From positions 1-64,000 of the forward strand of contig CAISPO010000019.1 of the NCBI GenBank assembly GCA_903887415.1: 64,000 nucleotides of DNA, written 5' to 3'. Position 1 is the first letter of the stretch; each line of letters begins with the position of its first letter. Shown here piece by piece: positions 50,156 to 55,660 of the stretch. The notes below the pieces were generated by a model. It was given only the letters and a program-made list of their open reading frames with translations, had not been told where the DNA came from and ran no database searches. Both the position numbers and the translations under genes were made by a program. The DNA comes from an uncultured Bacteroidota bacterium. GTDB taxonomy: Bacteria; Bacteroidota; Bacteroidia; Chitinophagales; Chitinophagaceae.

Positions 50156-50563
50156 TTATTTACTGCTATTTATCGTTTCTATGAGAGAGTCTATCATCAG
50201 GTTATAGCTATCCTTGTTGGTGGGCTTTTGATATACACGCACAGCCCCGGCTGCCAGGCAGTTGTCGGTAAGATTCAGATCTGCATAAGTAGAATAAACA
50301 AAAACAGGAATGTGGGAATAACGGGAATTTATTTTTAGTAATTTCAGGGTTTCCAGGCCGTTCATTTTGGGCATATTCTGGTCCAGGAGAATCATGTCGG
50401 GCAAGTCATCGTCATCTGCCAGCGCATTTAGAAATTCCAATACTTCCAGCCCATTTTCCACACAATTAAGTATTGCGATATCCTGCCTGTCTTCGAGGAA
50501 ATAAACAAAAAAGAATTTATCATCGCTATCGTCCTCTGCCAATACTATTTTCATCATACACAT
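50156..50563 (-). CDS. Single-domain response regulator of the kai operon
   Basis: 135 residues, receiver only (Rcp1-like). Acidic pair in LAEDDSDD (10-15), phosphoacceptor Asp61 in MILLDQNMPKMNG, switch residues VYSTYAD (90-95) and Lys113 in YQKPTNK. An in-frame ATG at 50554 (MKIVLAEDD) could be the true start. It follows the PAS histidine kinase by 15 bases and is the natural phosphate acceptor of that kinase. No output domain, so the effector is elsewhere. It is the last gene of the kaiC-kaiB-kaiB-kinase-regulator operon. Confidence 0.88.
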   Translation of the reverse strand: MCMMKIVLAEDDSDDKFFFVYFLEDRQDIAILNCVENGLEVLEFLNALADDDDLPDMILLDQNMPKMNGLETLKLLKINSRYSHIPVFVYSTYADLNLTDNCLAAGAVRVYQKPTNKDSYNLMIDSLIETINSSK

Positions 50564-50578
50564 TCTCTGCCAATTTCA

Positions 50579-51862
50579 TTAACCCTGCGTTACAGGTAAT
50601 ATAATAATAAACTCAGACCCAACCCCGGCGGTGCTGCGTGCGGTAATAAGCCCGTTGTGCTTGTCAATGATTTTTTTTGCAACCGCCAGTCCTATCCCCG
50701 TTCCCTCATACTTATCCTTCGTGTTCAGCCGTTCAAATAAAGAAAAAACATTGGCCACATATTTCTGATCAAAGCCTATGCCGTTATCTTTAATAGAAAT
50801 ACGGCAATACCGGCCGTTGACCGAAGGCGGCGCGTTGACCTCCTTGTCTTTTATTTTAACCGCGCTAATGGATATGTCAGGGGGTACATAGTTTTTGCAG
50901 AATTTCAGTGCGTTGCTCAAAATGTTCTGAAAGATCTGCCTCACCTGGCCTTTATTGGCTTCAACGACCGGCAGCGCTTGAAAATGAATCTTCGCTCTTT
51001 TTTCACGGATAAGTATCTCGTAGTCATTGATCCAGTCATTAACGATCTCCGAAAGATCAACGGGTTCAAAATTATTGTCATTGGCGGATAGCCGTGAATA
51101 ATTGAGAACGTCAATGATCAGTTGCTTCATACGATCTGATGATGACATTATTTTGTCGATAAATGACCGCGAATCTTCGGAAAGATTGTTAGTTTCATTA
51201 TCCCTCAGCAGGCTTGAAAAAACAGCGATCTTTCGCAGTGGCTCCTGCAGATCGTGAGAAGCAACTGAAGCAAATTGCAGCAAGTCATTATTGCTTGCCT
51301 CAAGTGCCCGGTTAGTTTTTTCGAGCTCCTCGTTCTTATTCTTCAGATGTCTTTGCGCCTCTTTCTCTGAGGTAAGATCGGTAACAATGATACTTAGGGA
51401 AAATCCTTCATCAAGTTCAAGCGTAGTTAATGACAACCGCACAGTAGGATGTTTTTTTGCCCTCAAAACAACCTCGCCCTTACAGTCTTCCTTCCATCCC
51501 CGCTCCATGAGTAATTTAAACTGATTTTTATATCCCAATGAAATGAACTGCTCAAAGGGAGTGCCGACAATACCGGAGAGTGGCGTGCTCACCTGGCTGG
51601 CAAACTGCGAATTGCAATAAAGAATGATCCCCGATCTGTTTAATGTTACCGCTCCTTCATTCATTTTTTCAATAAAGACGCGGTAGGTCTGATCGGAGCT
51701 TTTCAAAGTATATAACTGGTGCCCGTTTTCATTTTCAACCACCAGCGCATCTATCTGACCAGTCCTTATAGCCTCGATGGTATCATTGGCCTCGTCCAGC
51801 TGCCAACGAAGCTCAGCAAGCTGTTTCAATACATCCTCATATGTCAGCGCTGCTGCTTCCAT
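50579..51862 (-). CDS. PAS-domain sensor histidine kinase of the kai operon
   Basis: 427 residues, soluble. An N-terminal coiled coil (about 7-40, ELRWQLDEANDTIEAIRTGQIDALVV) precedes a PAS domain (about 55-165), a linker helix, HisKA with His203 in ASHDLQEPLRK, and HATPase_c (QNILSNALKFC, IKDNGIGFDQ, YEGTGIGLAVAKKI). No membrane segment, so it senses a cytoplasmic cue or partner protein. Coupling to KaiB/KaiC is implied by the operon (11 bases from the KaiB gene). In cyanobacteria the clock output kinase SasA has a KaiB-like sensor; here the sensor is PAS instead. Confidence 0.88.
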   Translation of the reverse strand: MEAAALTYEDVLKQLAELRWQLDEANDTIEAIRTGQIDALVVENENGHQLYTLKSSDQTYRVFIEKMNEGAVTLNRSGIILYCNSQFASQVSTPLSGIVGTPFEQFISLGYKNQFKLLMERGWKEDCKGEVVLRAKKHPTVRLSLTTLELDEGFSLSIIVTDLTSEKEAQRHLKNKNEELEKTNRALEASNNDLLQFASVASHDLQEPLRKIAVFSSLLRDNETNNLSEDSRSFIDKIMSSSDRMKQLIIDVLNYSRLSANDNNFEPVDLSEIVNDWINDYEILIREKRAKIHFQALPVVEANKGQVRQIFQNILSNALKFCKNYVPPDISISAVKIKDKEVNAPPSVNGRYCRISIKDNGIGFDQKYVANVFSLFERLNTKDKYEGTGIGLAVAKKIIDKHNGLITARSTAGVGSEFIIILPVTQG

Positions 51863-51873
51863 ACTTATTATTT

Positions 51874-52203
51874 TTAGAATTCCAGCCCTAGCCCGGATAA
51901 AACCTTCTTAGTGTTCGACATATCGCCAATCATCCTCCGCTCGGGTAAGGGGTATTTCTTTACCAGCATGGGCAGTGCAATTAACCCCTCGGCTTCGGCT
52001 ATATCACGTGACTGATAGACATCGATGATCTCCAATGAATAATCGCCCGGAATGTTAGCCTCACAAATATTTTTAAGATTAGTTATGGCACGTGAAGAAT
52101 TTGGCGATGCGCCTGTGATAAATAACCTAAGTACGTACTTACCCTGCTGCCTGCTCTGTCCTGATGTTTCCTGCGATCTTCCATCTTGTCTTCTCTTGCT
52201 CAT
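51874..52203 (-). CDS. kaiB: KaiB-family protein, copy 2
   Basis: 109 residues. A polar 20-residue N-terminal extension precedes the KaiB thioredoxin-like domain: VLRLFITGASPNSSRAITNLKNICEAN, LEIIDVYQSRDIAEAEGLIALPMLV, RRMIGDMSNTKKVLSGL. The IGDxS block and the P-L pairs match KaiB. It is more divergent than copy 1 (e.g. KYPLPERRMIG in place of xVPxPIRKIIG). In cyanobacteria KaiB switches fold to bind the KaiC CI ring; whether copy 2 does so is unknown. One base separates it from copy 1. Confidence 0.88.
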   Translation of the reverse strand: MSKRRQDGRSQETSGQSRQQGKYVLRLFITGASPNSSRAITNLKNICEANIPGDYSLEIIDVYQSRDIAEAEGLIALPMLVKKYPLPERRMIGDMSNTKKVLSGLGLEF

Positions 52204-52204
52204 T

Positions 52205-52498
52205 TTATCTGTTTACAGGGCGAATATTTAATCCCACTAACACTTTTTCTTCGTTGGACAGATCACCAATAATTTTCCGGATGGGTTCTGGTACTTTTCT
52301 CACTAATGTAGGAATAGCAAGAATCTGATCTCCTTCGGCTAACTGGGGTTGCACCAGCAGGTCGATAATTTCTATGACATACTTACCCATAAGGTGCTCC
52401 TCACAATATCGTTTGAGATTGGCTATAGCCGTCACAGATTTTGTTGTTTTACCGGCAACATATAGGCGTAACTCCCATGTTTGTTCTTCCGTGTCCAT
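52205..52498 (-). CDS. kaiB: KaiB-family protein, copy 1
   Basis: 97 residues, close to classical KaiB in length and sequence: [74 protein letters not shown]. It retains the fold-switch region and the charged C-terminal strand. Its start overlaps the kaiC stop by one base, so translation is coupled with kaiC. Partner of KaiC by family knowledge; presence of a second KaiB suggests division of labour or hetero-oligomers. Confidence 0.93.
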
Positions 52499-54234
52499 TA
52501 TCTTCCTTTTTTCTTTTTATCGGTTATAGTATTCTTATTGTTCCTGATATCCGTGATCGTCGCCCTGTTTTTCTCTATCACCTCGTTTCTCAGATCCTCC
52601 TCAACGTAAGATTTATTAAGTGCGTCCGTAATAGACTCAAACTCCTCTTTAAGACTAGCTATCTTAGCCTCAAGAACTGTTCTTTTTCTTTCTATTTCCT
52701 TGTCTTTTCTCCCTACTGCAAAGTCGCGCAGTACATGTCCGGCTTGAATCTTAAGTTGTTCCGCCTCTCGTGCCGAGCCCGTAAGCACACCATCAGCTCC
52801 CAGGAAAACGTCCATGAGGTCCAGCCCGAAATCTCTTATAATAAATTCTCTTACCTGGTTAGAGTGTTTCATTCCACGTGATTTCATGATATACATTCCC
52901 CGGTTGCGTTCGCCATTTGATTCTATATCCCTTACAAGCAGCCAGGCATCCACCAGAGACGAGACGCCCTCGTCTGTTTGCTCACTAACAACAGAGTTTA
53001 AAGTGAGCGCGGTGAACATCACCGTGATCTGCTCCGCCTGCAAAAAATCAATAAGCCTGATGAGCATAGATTTTACTTCGCTGACAGAACCGACAGTGAT
53101 AAGATTTGTGATCGGGTCCAGGATAACCGTCTGCGGCTTAAATTTTTTTATGATCTTGTACATGCTCACGAGGTGCATTTCAAGGCCGAACAACGTGGGG
53201 CGAGATGCATGAAACTGAAGCAAACCTTTGTTAACATGCGCATTCAGGTCAATGCCAATGGATTTCATATTGCGCACGATCTGTTGTGGGGATTCTTCGA
53301 AAGCAAAATAGGCGCACCTCTCTTTCCGCTGACAGGTCTGATCGGCAAAATAAGCCGCAATACTGGTCTTGCCAGTACCGGCGGTACCTGATACTAATAT
53401 GCTGCTACCTTTAAAAAAGCCTTGCCCACCTAGCATATCATCCAGCGCAGGTATGCCTGAAGATACCCGCTGCGATGAGACATCGTGTGCTAGAAGCAGA
53501 GAGGTAACCGGAAGAACAGAGATACCATCCGAATCTATCAAAAACGGGTATTCGTTAGTGCCATGCACGGAACCGCGATATTTGACAACCCTCAGAAAAC
53601 GGGTAGATATCTTATTTGAAACCCGGTGCTCCAGTAAAATAACGCAATCAGAAACGTATTCTTCAAGACCCTGGCGGGTAAGTAAACCATTTCCTTTTTC
53701 CCCGGTAATTATGGCTGTCACTTTTTTCTCCTTCAGCCATTGAAACAGCCTTCGCAGTTCAGACCGAAGTATAAACTGGTTTGACAGGCCCGAGAAAAGA
53801 TTCTCAATTGTGTCCAGTACCACCCTTTTGGCACCGATGCTTTTTATAGCATGGTCCAACCTTATGAATAAACCCTCCAGGTCGTATTCACCGGTTTCTT
53901 CGATCTCGCTTCGCTCAATATGAATGTGGTCTATTTTTAGCAAGCCGTCCCGCTGCAATTGCTCCAGGTCGAAACCAAGAGAAGCAACATTCATAGCCAA
54001 CTCTTCTGATTTTTCTTCAAATGCGATGAAAACCCCGGGCTCGTTATACTGTGTTGCACCACGCACAATAAACTCAAGTGAAAGCAACGTCTTGCCGCAC
54101 CCCGGGTCCCCACAGACAAGCGTGGGCCTGCCGGCGGGGATACCTCCACCGGTCAATTCATCCAGGCCGATGATACCAGTCGGTGTTTTTGCCAAGGTTG
54201 ATCTTGATAATGGTTTGTCTTTTTTCGAAGTCAT
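52498..54234 (-). CDS. kaiC: KaiC-family double-domain RecA-like ATPase
   Basis: 578 residues. CI domain: Walker A GDPGCGKT (42-49), catalytic Glu pair 73-74 (AFEEKSEE). CII domain: Walker A GTAGTGKT (283-290), Glu pair 313-314 (AFEESPQQ). The phosphosite region reads [10 protein letters not shown] (420-429), aligning with T426...S431-T432...D435 of Synechococcus KaiC, so Ser425 and Ser426 are candidate autophosphorylation sites. [13 protein letters not shown] (452-464) matches the region after it. Residues about 490-578 are a charged coiled coil with a Lys-rich end rather than the KaiA-binding tail. First gene of the operon; a terminator of the upstream amt gene separates them. No KaiA in the window. 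Confidence 0.95.
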
Positions 54235-54424: not shown

Positions 54425-55660
54425 TCAAACTACCCCTGCATCATAGGCCTGCTCGCCATGTATGGCATCATCCAGGCCTTTTGCTTCTTCAGCTTCATTT
54501 ACTTTTACTTTAGTTATCACATTAATAAGTGCCAGCATAACGTAGGTAAAGACGAAAGCATAAACACAGGTGCCGACGACAGCTATTAATTGGTGCATGA
54601 AGAAGGTGGTACCACCATATTTAAGGCCATCTGCTGTACCCGGATTGATAGAATGGGCCGCAAAAACGCCCAGCAAAATGGTTCCTAGGCAACCACCAAT
54701 TCCGTGTACGCCCCACACATCAAGGGCATCGTCCCAGCCCATTTTATTTTTCAGGTGAACGGCAAGGTAGCAGACACCGCCTGCGGCGATACCAATAGTA
54801 ACTGCAGAATTGAGCGAGACATAACCGGCGGCTGGTGTAATAGTCGCCAACCCAGCTACCGCACCTGTAAGCAGACCAACAAATTTCGGTTTCTTCACCA
54901 GGCTCCATTCTATGATGAGCCAGGTTATAGCAGCAAACGATGCGGCAACATCGGTATTAATAAATGCCTGTGCGGTAATTGCATCTACATCCAGCTCGCT
55001 GCCTGCATTAAAGCCATACCAGCCAAACCACAGCAGGCCCGTACCTATAGCTATAAGCGGTATGCTGTTTGGCGGCGACTCCCGGTCCCTGCGCTTGCCC
55101 ACATAGATCACTGACGCAAGCGCTGCAAAACCTGCAGTGGCATGAACCACAATACCGCCCGCAAAATCACGAACACCCCATGCAAATAAAAGGCCATTAC
55201 CCCATACCATATGCACGAACGGATAATAAACAAGCACTTGCCACAGGATGAGAAAAATAAGATAGCTCTTAAAAGTGACACGATTGATAAAAGCACCTGT
55301 GATAAGTGCGGGAGTAATGATGGCAAACATCATCTGGTAGGCAAAAAATACAAATTCAGGGATAAGTCTGCCGTTCGGCGTAGTGTACGCCGAATTCAGG
55401 TTCACACCATGCATAAACGCCTTGTGAAAATCGCCGATAATACCGCCCATAGCGTTCCCGCTGAAGCATAACGAATAGCCAAAGGCCCACCATAAAATAG
55501 TAGTGATCCCCATAGACACGAAACTCTGGATCATAATACCCAGGATGTTTCGTTTGCCCGCAAGGCCGCCGTAAAAGAACGCGAGGCCGGGGGTCATCAA
55601 CATTACCAGACTTGTGGCGAGGAGCATAAAGCCCGTGGAGCCGGTATCAAAAGCAGCCAT
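54425..55660 (-). CDS. amt: Ammonium transporter (Amt/Mep/Rh family)
   Basis: 411 residues, eleven-helix channel. The twin His are in YYPFVHMVWGNG and DVWGVHGIGGCLGT; the external site motif FFAYQMMFAIITPALITGAF and the WFGWYGFNAGSEL segment are intact. It has no signal peptide and a short C-terminal tail (GLDDAIHGEQAYD) that resembles the regulatory tail of Amt proteins. No glnK gene is adjacent, unlike many amt loci. It imports ammonium/ammonia. Confidence 0.95.
   Translation of the reverse strand: MAAFDTGSTGFMLLATSLVMLMTPGLAFFYGGLAGKRNILGIMIQSFVSMGITTILWWAFGYSLCFSGNAMGGIIGDFHKAFMHGVNLNSAYTTPNGRLIPEFVFFAYQMMFAIITPALITGAFINRVTFKSYLIFLILWQVLVYYPFVHMVWGNGLLFAWGVRDFAGGIVVHATAGFAALASVIYVGKRRDRESPPNSIPLIAIGTGLLWFGWYGFNAGSELDVDAITAQAFINTDVAASFAAITWLIIEWSLVKKPKFVGLLTGAVAGLATITPAAGYVSLNSAVTIGIAAGGVCYLAVHLKNKMGWDDALDVWGVHGIGGCLGTILLGVFAAHSINPGTADGLKYGGTTFFMHQLIAVVGTCVYAFVFTYVMLALINVITKVKVNEAEEAKGLDDAIHGEQAYDAGVV

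Follow-up and report, generated by a model that had tools for sequence, protein, structure and literature searches.

The 64,000-nucleotide stretch from contig CAISPO010000019.1 of an uncultured member of the Chitinophagaceae (Bacteroidota), here called the window, was found to carry a five-gene operon, kaiC-kaiBa-kaiBb-kinase-receiver, at positions 50156-54234 of the minus strand. Its two KaiB proteins belong, as judged by sequence comparison, to two ortholog groups, and structure prediction suggests that their resting folds are opposite, with KaiBa being in the ground state and KaiBb fold-switched. Its histidine kinase starts with a module that is tied to kai loci within the Bacteroidota genomes and plasmids searched. 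The operon is real and conserved, and probably a functional KaiC2 timer or energy sensor of a known kind. The occurrence of KaiC2 and KaiB2 in Bacteroidetes and of kaiC-kaiB-kinase operons is already known; the predicted opposite folds of the two KaiBs and the tie of the kinase module to kai loci go beyond what was found in print.

Organisms with KaiB2- and KaiC2-like proteins as their only Kai proteins were described as a group by Schmelling 2017, and all of them are Bacteroidetes (PMC5520375). KaiBC clusters followed by a kinase are in print (PMC3164672, PMC4794148), for Rhodospirillum rubrum two distinct kaiBC clusters are reported, both with a PAS kinase next to them (PMC10931921), and a species description of 2024 calls KaiB and KaiC rare in Bacteroidota (PMC11573002). 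No Bacteroidota two-KaiB operon, KaiB pair of opposite folds or kinase module was found described in the open-access text searched; the figures of PMC3164672 may show paired KaiBs.

KaiC and the core of the system

The five genes are tightly packed, with successive gaps of -1, 1, 11 and 15 bases, as stated in the preliminary description of this DNA. The kaiC gene (52498-54234) is predicted to encode a 578 amino acid (aa) protein of the KaiC2 type with two KaiC domains (PF06745, E 7.8e-109), in keeping with the full double-domain KaiC described earlier. Walker A and EE motifs are intact in both domains, and the phosphosite pair is S425-S426; two serines are also reported for cyanobacterial KaiC2 (PMC5520375). 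The nearest solved structure is that of Rhodobacter sphaeroides KaiC (8dba, E 2.4e-191), the entries from Synechococcus elongatus following at about 1e-92. The alignment with 8dba covers residues 14-551 and thus extends into the C-terminal tail, a segment of 90 aa after residue 488 that is alignable with the R. sphaeroides coiled coil. In R. sphaeroides this tail joins two hexamers, KaiC autophosphorylates without KaiA, the cycle is driven by the ATP/ADP ratio and the ATPase activity is raised by KaiB (PMC10076222). By homology, the window KaiC would probably be a coiled-coil-linked double hexamer.

These features are widely conserved. Among 124 KaiC frames of at least 450 aa, shorter frames being left out before counting, the phosphosites are SS in 121 (an alignment-based count), the EE pairs are present in both domains in all 124, the P-loop GK[TS] is found in the first domain in 121 and in the second in 110, and the tail is 60 aa or longer in 112. 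All five single-KaiB Bacteroidia loci with a full KaiC in the alignment (L042, L044, L106, L141, L142) have a short tail. No claim linking tail loss to a single KaiB is made, because these five loci represent only two clades, short tails also occur in four paired loci (L031, L034, L036, L151) and in L066, and coil-bearing single-KaiB systems exist outside Bacteroidia.

By sequence, the core is a KaiC2/KaiB2 system of the R. sphaeroides type. It shares with the R. sphaeroides KaiBC hourglass timer (8DBA, 8FWI, 8FWJ; PMC10076222) the KaiC2 type, the SS phosphosites, the alignable tail, the order kaiC-kaiB-kinase (L049), the N-terminal module of the kinase and, according to the same paper, the lack of KaiA. 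The R. sphaeroides system differs in having one ground-type KaiB, an HWE kinase core instead of the HisKA and HATPase_c domains seen here, and no adjoining receiver gene. The KaiA family (PF07688) had no match in the genome from which the window comes (4.73 Mb, 99.3% complete), as had been foreseen; among 14 control genomes, S. elongatus alone was matched. The same genome contains one full KaiC, one further weak KaiC match (E 3.7e-4), and stand-alone KaiB in two places only, namely the operon pair.

Two KaiB proteins of predicted opposite folds

The claim that the operon encodes two different KaiB proteins held. The kaiBa gene (52205-52498, minus strand) encodes a 97 aa protein (PF07689, E 1e-26), a KaiB of the R. 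sphaeroides and cyanobacterial type, and kaiBb (51874-52203, minus strand) a 109 aa protein (PF07689, E 8.8e-21) that is Lpp1115-like and has at its N-terminus a variable extension of some 20 aa. In a tree of 94 KaiBs, which is built on few columns and weakly supported as a whole, 38 of the 41 rows labelled KaiBb fell on one branch and 41 of the 51 labelled KaiBa on another, each with a value of 86 in the Shimodaira-Hasegawa-like approximate likelihood ratio test (SH-aLRT). The single KaiBs of R. sphaeroides and Sinorhizobium were placed with KaiBa, and the second KaiB of Pararhizobium with KaiBb. Over the same 78 operons, window included, mean pairwise identity is 87% for KaiBa, 79% for KaiC and 69% for KaiBb.

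The division was also seen in model scores. The KaiBa model scored higher than the KaiBb model with KaiB-RS (118.7 vs 100.0 bits), S. elongatus KaiB (108.8 vs 99.4 bits) and KaiB-TV4 (69.1 vs 61.3 bits), whereas the printed fragment of Lpp1115 from Legionella pneumophila, the fold-switched KaiB of 4kun, gave 87.5 bits with the KaiBb model and 65.2 with that of KaiBa. Lpp1115, which lies in a kai operon with a second KaiB, has the same residues as the window KaiBb, E and S, at positions 68 and 83.

Folds were predicted for the two window KaiBs with AlphaFold2 (AF2), five models each, from alignments of the ten closest sequences, a recipe that gave the expected state for the characterised KaiBs named by its authors (PMC10808063). 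The best model of KaiBa is in the ground state, with a mean predicted local distance difference test score (pLDDT) of 78.4, and that of KaiBb is fold-switched and thioredoxin-like, with a mean pLDDT of 62.3. In a Foldseek comparison with the PDB, the 17 best matches of the KaiBa model were ground-state KaiBs, with template modelling (TM) scores of 0.82-0.91 vs about 0.4 for fold-switched entries, and the 11 best matches of the KaiBb model were fold-switched KaiBs, led by Lpp1115 (4kun); the state of the matched entries was assigned in part from their titles. Beyond rank 11, the KaiBb model matched SasA domains, generic thioredoxins and, with low TM-scores, ground-state KaiBs, in mixed order. 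From these models, KaiBa appears to rest in the ground-state fold and KaiBb in the fold-switched fold.

A residue pattern agrees with the two predictions. KaiB-RS was shifted from 11% to 86% fold-switched by I68R, V83D and a change at N84, given as N84R in the text and as N84A in the methods of the paper (PMC10808063). Residues were counted in KaiB-RS numbering in 107 KaiBa and 108 KaiBb, which owing to contigs counted both as named locus and as family-survey genome (L075/L032, L099/L033, L107/L040) are 101 and 104 distinct sequences, S or T at 83 being counted as polar. Positions 68 and 83 are hydrophobic in 107/107 KaiBa, and in KaiBb polar or charged at 68 in 97/108, at 83 in 102/108 and at both in 93/108; the window KaiBb has E at 68 and S at 83. 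The three prolines because of which fold switching of KaiB-RS takes hours (PMC11551320) are kept in 107/107 KaiBa, and in KaiBb proline 58 is found in 108/108 and proline 65 in 107/108.

The kinase and its N-terminal module

Next to kaiBb, and encoded at 50579-51862 of the minus strand, is a 427 aa histidine kinase with HisKA and HATPase_c domains (Pfam), the H, N and G boxes of which are intact in a motif search. Of the soluble PAS histidine kinase described earlier, the histidine kinase stood; solubility was judged by eye, and no PAS match was obtained in the window kinase with Pfam at E 0.001. PAS is assigned to it by homology, because the domain was seen in the kinase of the close relative L052 (PF00989, 23.1 bits vs a cut-off of 22.6). 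With no KaiB-like domain found in it by Pfam, the window kinase is not a SasA-like fused kinase, in line with the earlier suggestion of an output route other than the cyanobacterial one. Schmelling 2017 noted that SasA homologues outside cyanobacteria are without a KaiB-like domain, and concluded that another output route must be used (PMC5520375).

The compared kinases encoded beside kaiB share about 90 N-terminal residues, encoded in the window at 51593-51862 (minus strand), in which a coiled-coil-like motif runs into the start of the PAS region. This module is independent of the kinase core, which is HisKA in Bacteroidota and Pararhizobium and HWE in R. sphaeroides. A model of the module, A4, was built from 12 N-terminal ends of kaiB-adjacent kinases and searched against 147 genomes of the family, where all candidates were scored, and against 395 genomes of the phylum, with up to 13 candidates scored per genome. 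In the family, scores of at least 100 bits were reached in 13 genomes, each time next to kaiB. The following match stood at 33.6 bits, and the lower-scoring ones were for the most part confined to the PAS half. In the phylum, 28 genomes reached 90 bits or more, all of them KaiB genomes, and the next best match again had 33.6 bits; 26 of these 28 matches lie within 74 base pairs (bp) of the KaiB domain and two at 263 bp. High scores at kai loci are no surprise for a model made from kai kinases; the result is the empty range between 34 and 90 bits. The module was found in 20/20 phylum genomes with paired KaiBs vs 8/17 of the other KaiB genomes.

Among 72,556 plasmids, the R. sphaeroides end matched 14 records, 13 at kai loci (nine of them Cereibacter records, including the query itself) and one a 27-residue fragment. 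The Pararhizobium end found itself alone and missed the R. sphaeroides copy, so that searches with single sequences evidently overlook distant copies. The initial expectation that the N-terminal motif would be widespread in kinases was not borne out in Bacteroidota or on plasmids. Within the genomes searched, the module is tied to kai loci.

The receiver

The last gene (50156-50563, minus strand) encodes a 135 aa protein with a lone Response_reg domain (Pfam), a receiver-only regulator as claimed, in which the DD, D, S/T and K motifs are intact; presumably the kinase acts on it. No other part of the operon is as inconstant as the receiver, which is found directly after the kinase in 18/80 of the named loci defined below. 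Hybrid kinases with a receiver of their own occur at other kai loci (L048, L144). They offer an analogy only and no support by fusion for the window receiver, because their receivers score like receivers elsewhere in the loci with the window receiver model.

Distribution across Bacteroidota

The same gene order was sought in relatives, and the arrangement is no peculiarity of one genome. Among the best 80 of at least 466 relatives from a scan of named genomes with the second KaiB, here the named loci, in which KaiBb is present by construction, 78 have kaiC-kaiBa-kaiBb-kinase in this order, 18 with a receiver next and five with another receiver before kaiC. The exceptions are L113, which ends before the kinase, and L106, which has no KaiBa and KaiBb as the only KaiB at the locus. 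The kinase directly follows kaiBb in 79/80, the remaining locus ending at the contig end. Because the order is kept in 78/80 named loci, chance adjacency of the genes was rejected. By their labels, 34 of the 80 loci are from Sphingobacteriaceae, 18 from Spirosomataceae, 17 from Chitinophagaceae, five from Cytophagaceae and one from Flavobacteriaceae, four are unassigned, and one, L107 (JADCRZ010000009.1), is from a bin labelled Williamsia (Actinomycetota) that carries a Bacteroidota kai operon, and the label looks wrong.

KaiB was found above the Pfam cut-off in 15/147 family genomes (16 at E 0.001), 12 with an adjacent pair. In these 12 loci, window included, the pair is followed by the kinase in 12/12 (as two frames in L036) and preceded by kaiC in 11, the twelfth lying at a contig end; a receiver is next in five. 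In the phylum, KaiB above the cut-off was found in 37/395 genomes, with 20 adjacent pairs and 17 other cases. All five genes in the same order were also met in seven genomes of another family (L156-L162).

Several loci depart from this plan. In L141 (4757-4999) and L142 (4629-4871), from genomes G374 and G271, kaiBb is gone and 241 bases without an open KaiB frame are left, while kaiC, kaiBa and the module kinase are kept; in both genomes KaiC is without the long tail, and the residue before the lysine of the second P-loop is S instead of G. L042 and L044 (G010, G139) have kaiC with KaiBb as the only KaiB of the genome, a short KaiC tail and no module kinase, and would, if the fold prediction holds, be natural fold-switched-only systems. 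In L134 (3917-8136) and L143 (2091-6309), from G324 and G509, a KaiB gene lies directly between two histidine kinases; the best KaiC matches in these genomes are weak (E about 1e-8, 23% identity, one domain), and the module was not seen on comparison in the kinases beside these KaiBs. Besides the standard operon, the genome G077 contains a further kaiB-kaiC locus, L041 (G077:C150), that is highly divergent and has a KaiC that is either short or broken.

Two plasmids carry kai genes of note. L051, on a plasmid of Hymenobacter sp. GOD-10R, has a lone KaiB gene; the neighbouring genes listed, which span about 4 kb around it, include neither kaiC nor a kinase. L048, on plasmid p3 of Pararhizobium qamdonense, typed as conjugative, is a whole kaiC-kaiB-kaiB-hybrid kinase operon, and kai modules may travel. 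L048 resembles the window operon in gene order and in the kinase module, and differs in that the receiver is fused to the kinase. Its second KaiB is only loosely of the KaiBb type (113 vs 103 bits), with I at 68 and E at 83.

Just upstream of kaiC and on the same strand lies an ammonium transporter gene, amtB (54425-55660), separated from kaiC by a terminator-like hairpin behind amtB (54402-54385, minus strand). The hairpin scan gave seven terminator-like hairpins in the region vs 3.7 ± 2.0 in shuffles; the promoter scan, with 11 found vs a shuffle mean of 9.9, was not above shuffles. Among the fetched loci, the flanking amtB and transporter genes are common to the nearest relative L052 only, save for a partial transporter match in L131.

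Discussion

Gene content, orthology, conservation, the residue pattern and the tie of the module to kai loci were computed, and they are tentatively read, at a likelihood a little short of even, as a KaiC2 system without KaiA that works as a timer or as a sensor of the energy state, its KaiB stage being in two parts and its output a two-component pair of its own. If homology to the R. sphaeroides system is a guide, KaiC would form a dodecamer, autophosphorylate on S425/S426 without KaiA and lose phosphate as ATP/ADP falls. KaiBa, in the ground fold, would need to refold slowly before binding the CI ring, and this would create a delay. KaiBb, already thioredoxin-like according to its model, would bind without delay, and either a basal KaiB effect that sets in fast or competition between the two KaiBs for the ring could follow. 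We infer that the adjoining kinase might read the state of KaiC and KaiB by way of its N-terminal module, through binding of the module to Kai proteins, and might pass phosphate to the receiver, and the whole might have a role in timing. The timing or stress role suggested in the preliminary description is plausible. Compared with cyanobacterial KaiABC with SasA and RpaA, the KaiC and KaiB families are shared, possibly together with a thioredoxin-like CI binder beside a kinase, whereas KaiA, a KaiB-like domain in the kinase and a second domain in the receiver are all absent here (Pfam). The Ramlibacter-type pair of kaiC and a specific kinase with an RtaNt module, in a genome without kaiB (PMC3164672), is another arrangement, two kaiB genes being present here.

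A number of observations weigh against this reading. The predicted folds are those of the best models only, the other four having mean pLDDT values of 62-66.5 for KaiBa and 52-60 for KaiBb, the AF2 runs cover the two window KaiBs and no control KaiB, and among the matches of the KaiBb model, generic thioredoxin-fold proteins are of about the same quality as the SasA domain. Fold model and residue test both derive from the AF-Cluster work and are not fully independent, and the KaiBa and KaiBb labels under which residues were counted come from models that include positions 68 and 83; in all paired loci counted, the label fits the place of the gene in the operon. The residue rule is not universal, since KaiB-TV4, which does not resemble KaiBb, is fold-switched with V at 68. 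Of the KaiBb, no more than 93/108 keep proline 67. A crude heptad test of the window KaiC tail was weak, 46 of 1000 shuffles being equally good. On the output side, the receiver is missing in most loci, the receivers of the hybrid kinases L048 and L144 score 10 and 28 bits, respectively, with the window receiver model, and nine of the 37 KaiB genomes in the phylum lack the module, the KaiB matches of two of these nine being truncated. KaiBb is missing beside the module in L141, L142 and R. sphaeroides, and the module is missing beside KaiBb in G010 and G139; as each is found without the other, the module follows the kai operon and not KaiBb as such.

An unlikely alternative, though one to be taken seriously, is a stress or energy-charge switch with no timing role, in which the proteins would report ATP/ADP or redox and the KaiBs would set only a threshold. 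KaiB and KaiC homologues serve stress responses in other bacteria (PMC5520375, PMC11372060), and the Rhodobacter KaiC2-KaiB2 timer follows ATP/ADP and does not oscillate by itself (PMC11372060). By sequence, however, the KaiC tail and the prolines of KaiB, to which the hours-long delay of the R. sphaeroides system is tied, appear to be kept.

It is doubtful that the operon holds a split SasA, in which a stand-alone, permanently thioredoxin-like KaiBb would occupy the CI site of KaiC, in the manner of the N-terminal domain of cyanobacterial SasA, and recruit a separate kinase, to be competed off by KaiBa as the timer. The prediction of a fold-switched KaiBb would suit this arrangement, as would the presence of 6x61 and 1t4y, both structures of the SasA N-domain, as numbers 13 and 18 of its Foldseek matches, but unrelated thioredoxin-fold proteins rank among the SasA matches, and with the SasA model NF006800 the scores of KaiBa (24.5 bits) and KaiBb (23.2 bits) are similar. 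The kinase directly after kaiBb in nearly all named loci, the module kinase in every paired-KaiB genome of the phylum vs about half of the others, and the KaiB between two kinases in G324 and G509, where no KaiC is recognisable, also speak for it. Yet the module kinase persists without kaiBb in L141 and L142 and in R. sphaeroides with its one ground-type KaiB, KaiBb persists without a module kinase in L042 and L044, and in 2/20 pairs (G406, G472) it is not clear that the second KaiB belongs to the KaiBb type. A KaiB-kinase fusion, which could have served as a Rosetta stone for KaiBb, was sought by open-frame length and none was seen, the longest frame over the PF07689 cut-off having 199 aa in the 395 genomes and 141 aa in the 147. 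Similarly improbable is the fuller proposal of a divided KaiB task, with KaiBa as metamorphic timer and with KaiBb, constitutively thioredoxin-like, binding CI as a free subunit in place of the SasA sensor domain, the pair forming with the kai-specific kinase module the missing output pathway of non-cyanobacterial Kai systems.

That KaiBb is a redundant or decaying duplicate of KaiBa is very improbable: it does evolve faster, as its lower mean identity over the 78 operons indicates, but it is kept in order in 78 of the 80 loci fetched by it, retains prolines 58, 65 and, less strictly, 67, falls for the most part on one branch (SH-aLRT 86), and is the sole KaiB of the genome in G010 and G139 and the sole one at the locus in L106.

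For KaiC output outside cyanobacteria, the kinase module beside kaiB, found nowhere else at a comparable score in the genomes searched, is a direct candidate. The KaiB pair of predicted opposite folds, together with genomes that keep one type, would be a clean system for asking what fold switching is for, and the operon makes the output of non-cyanobacterial Kai timers testable.

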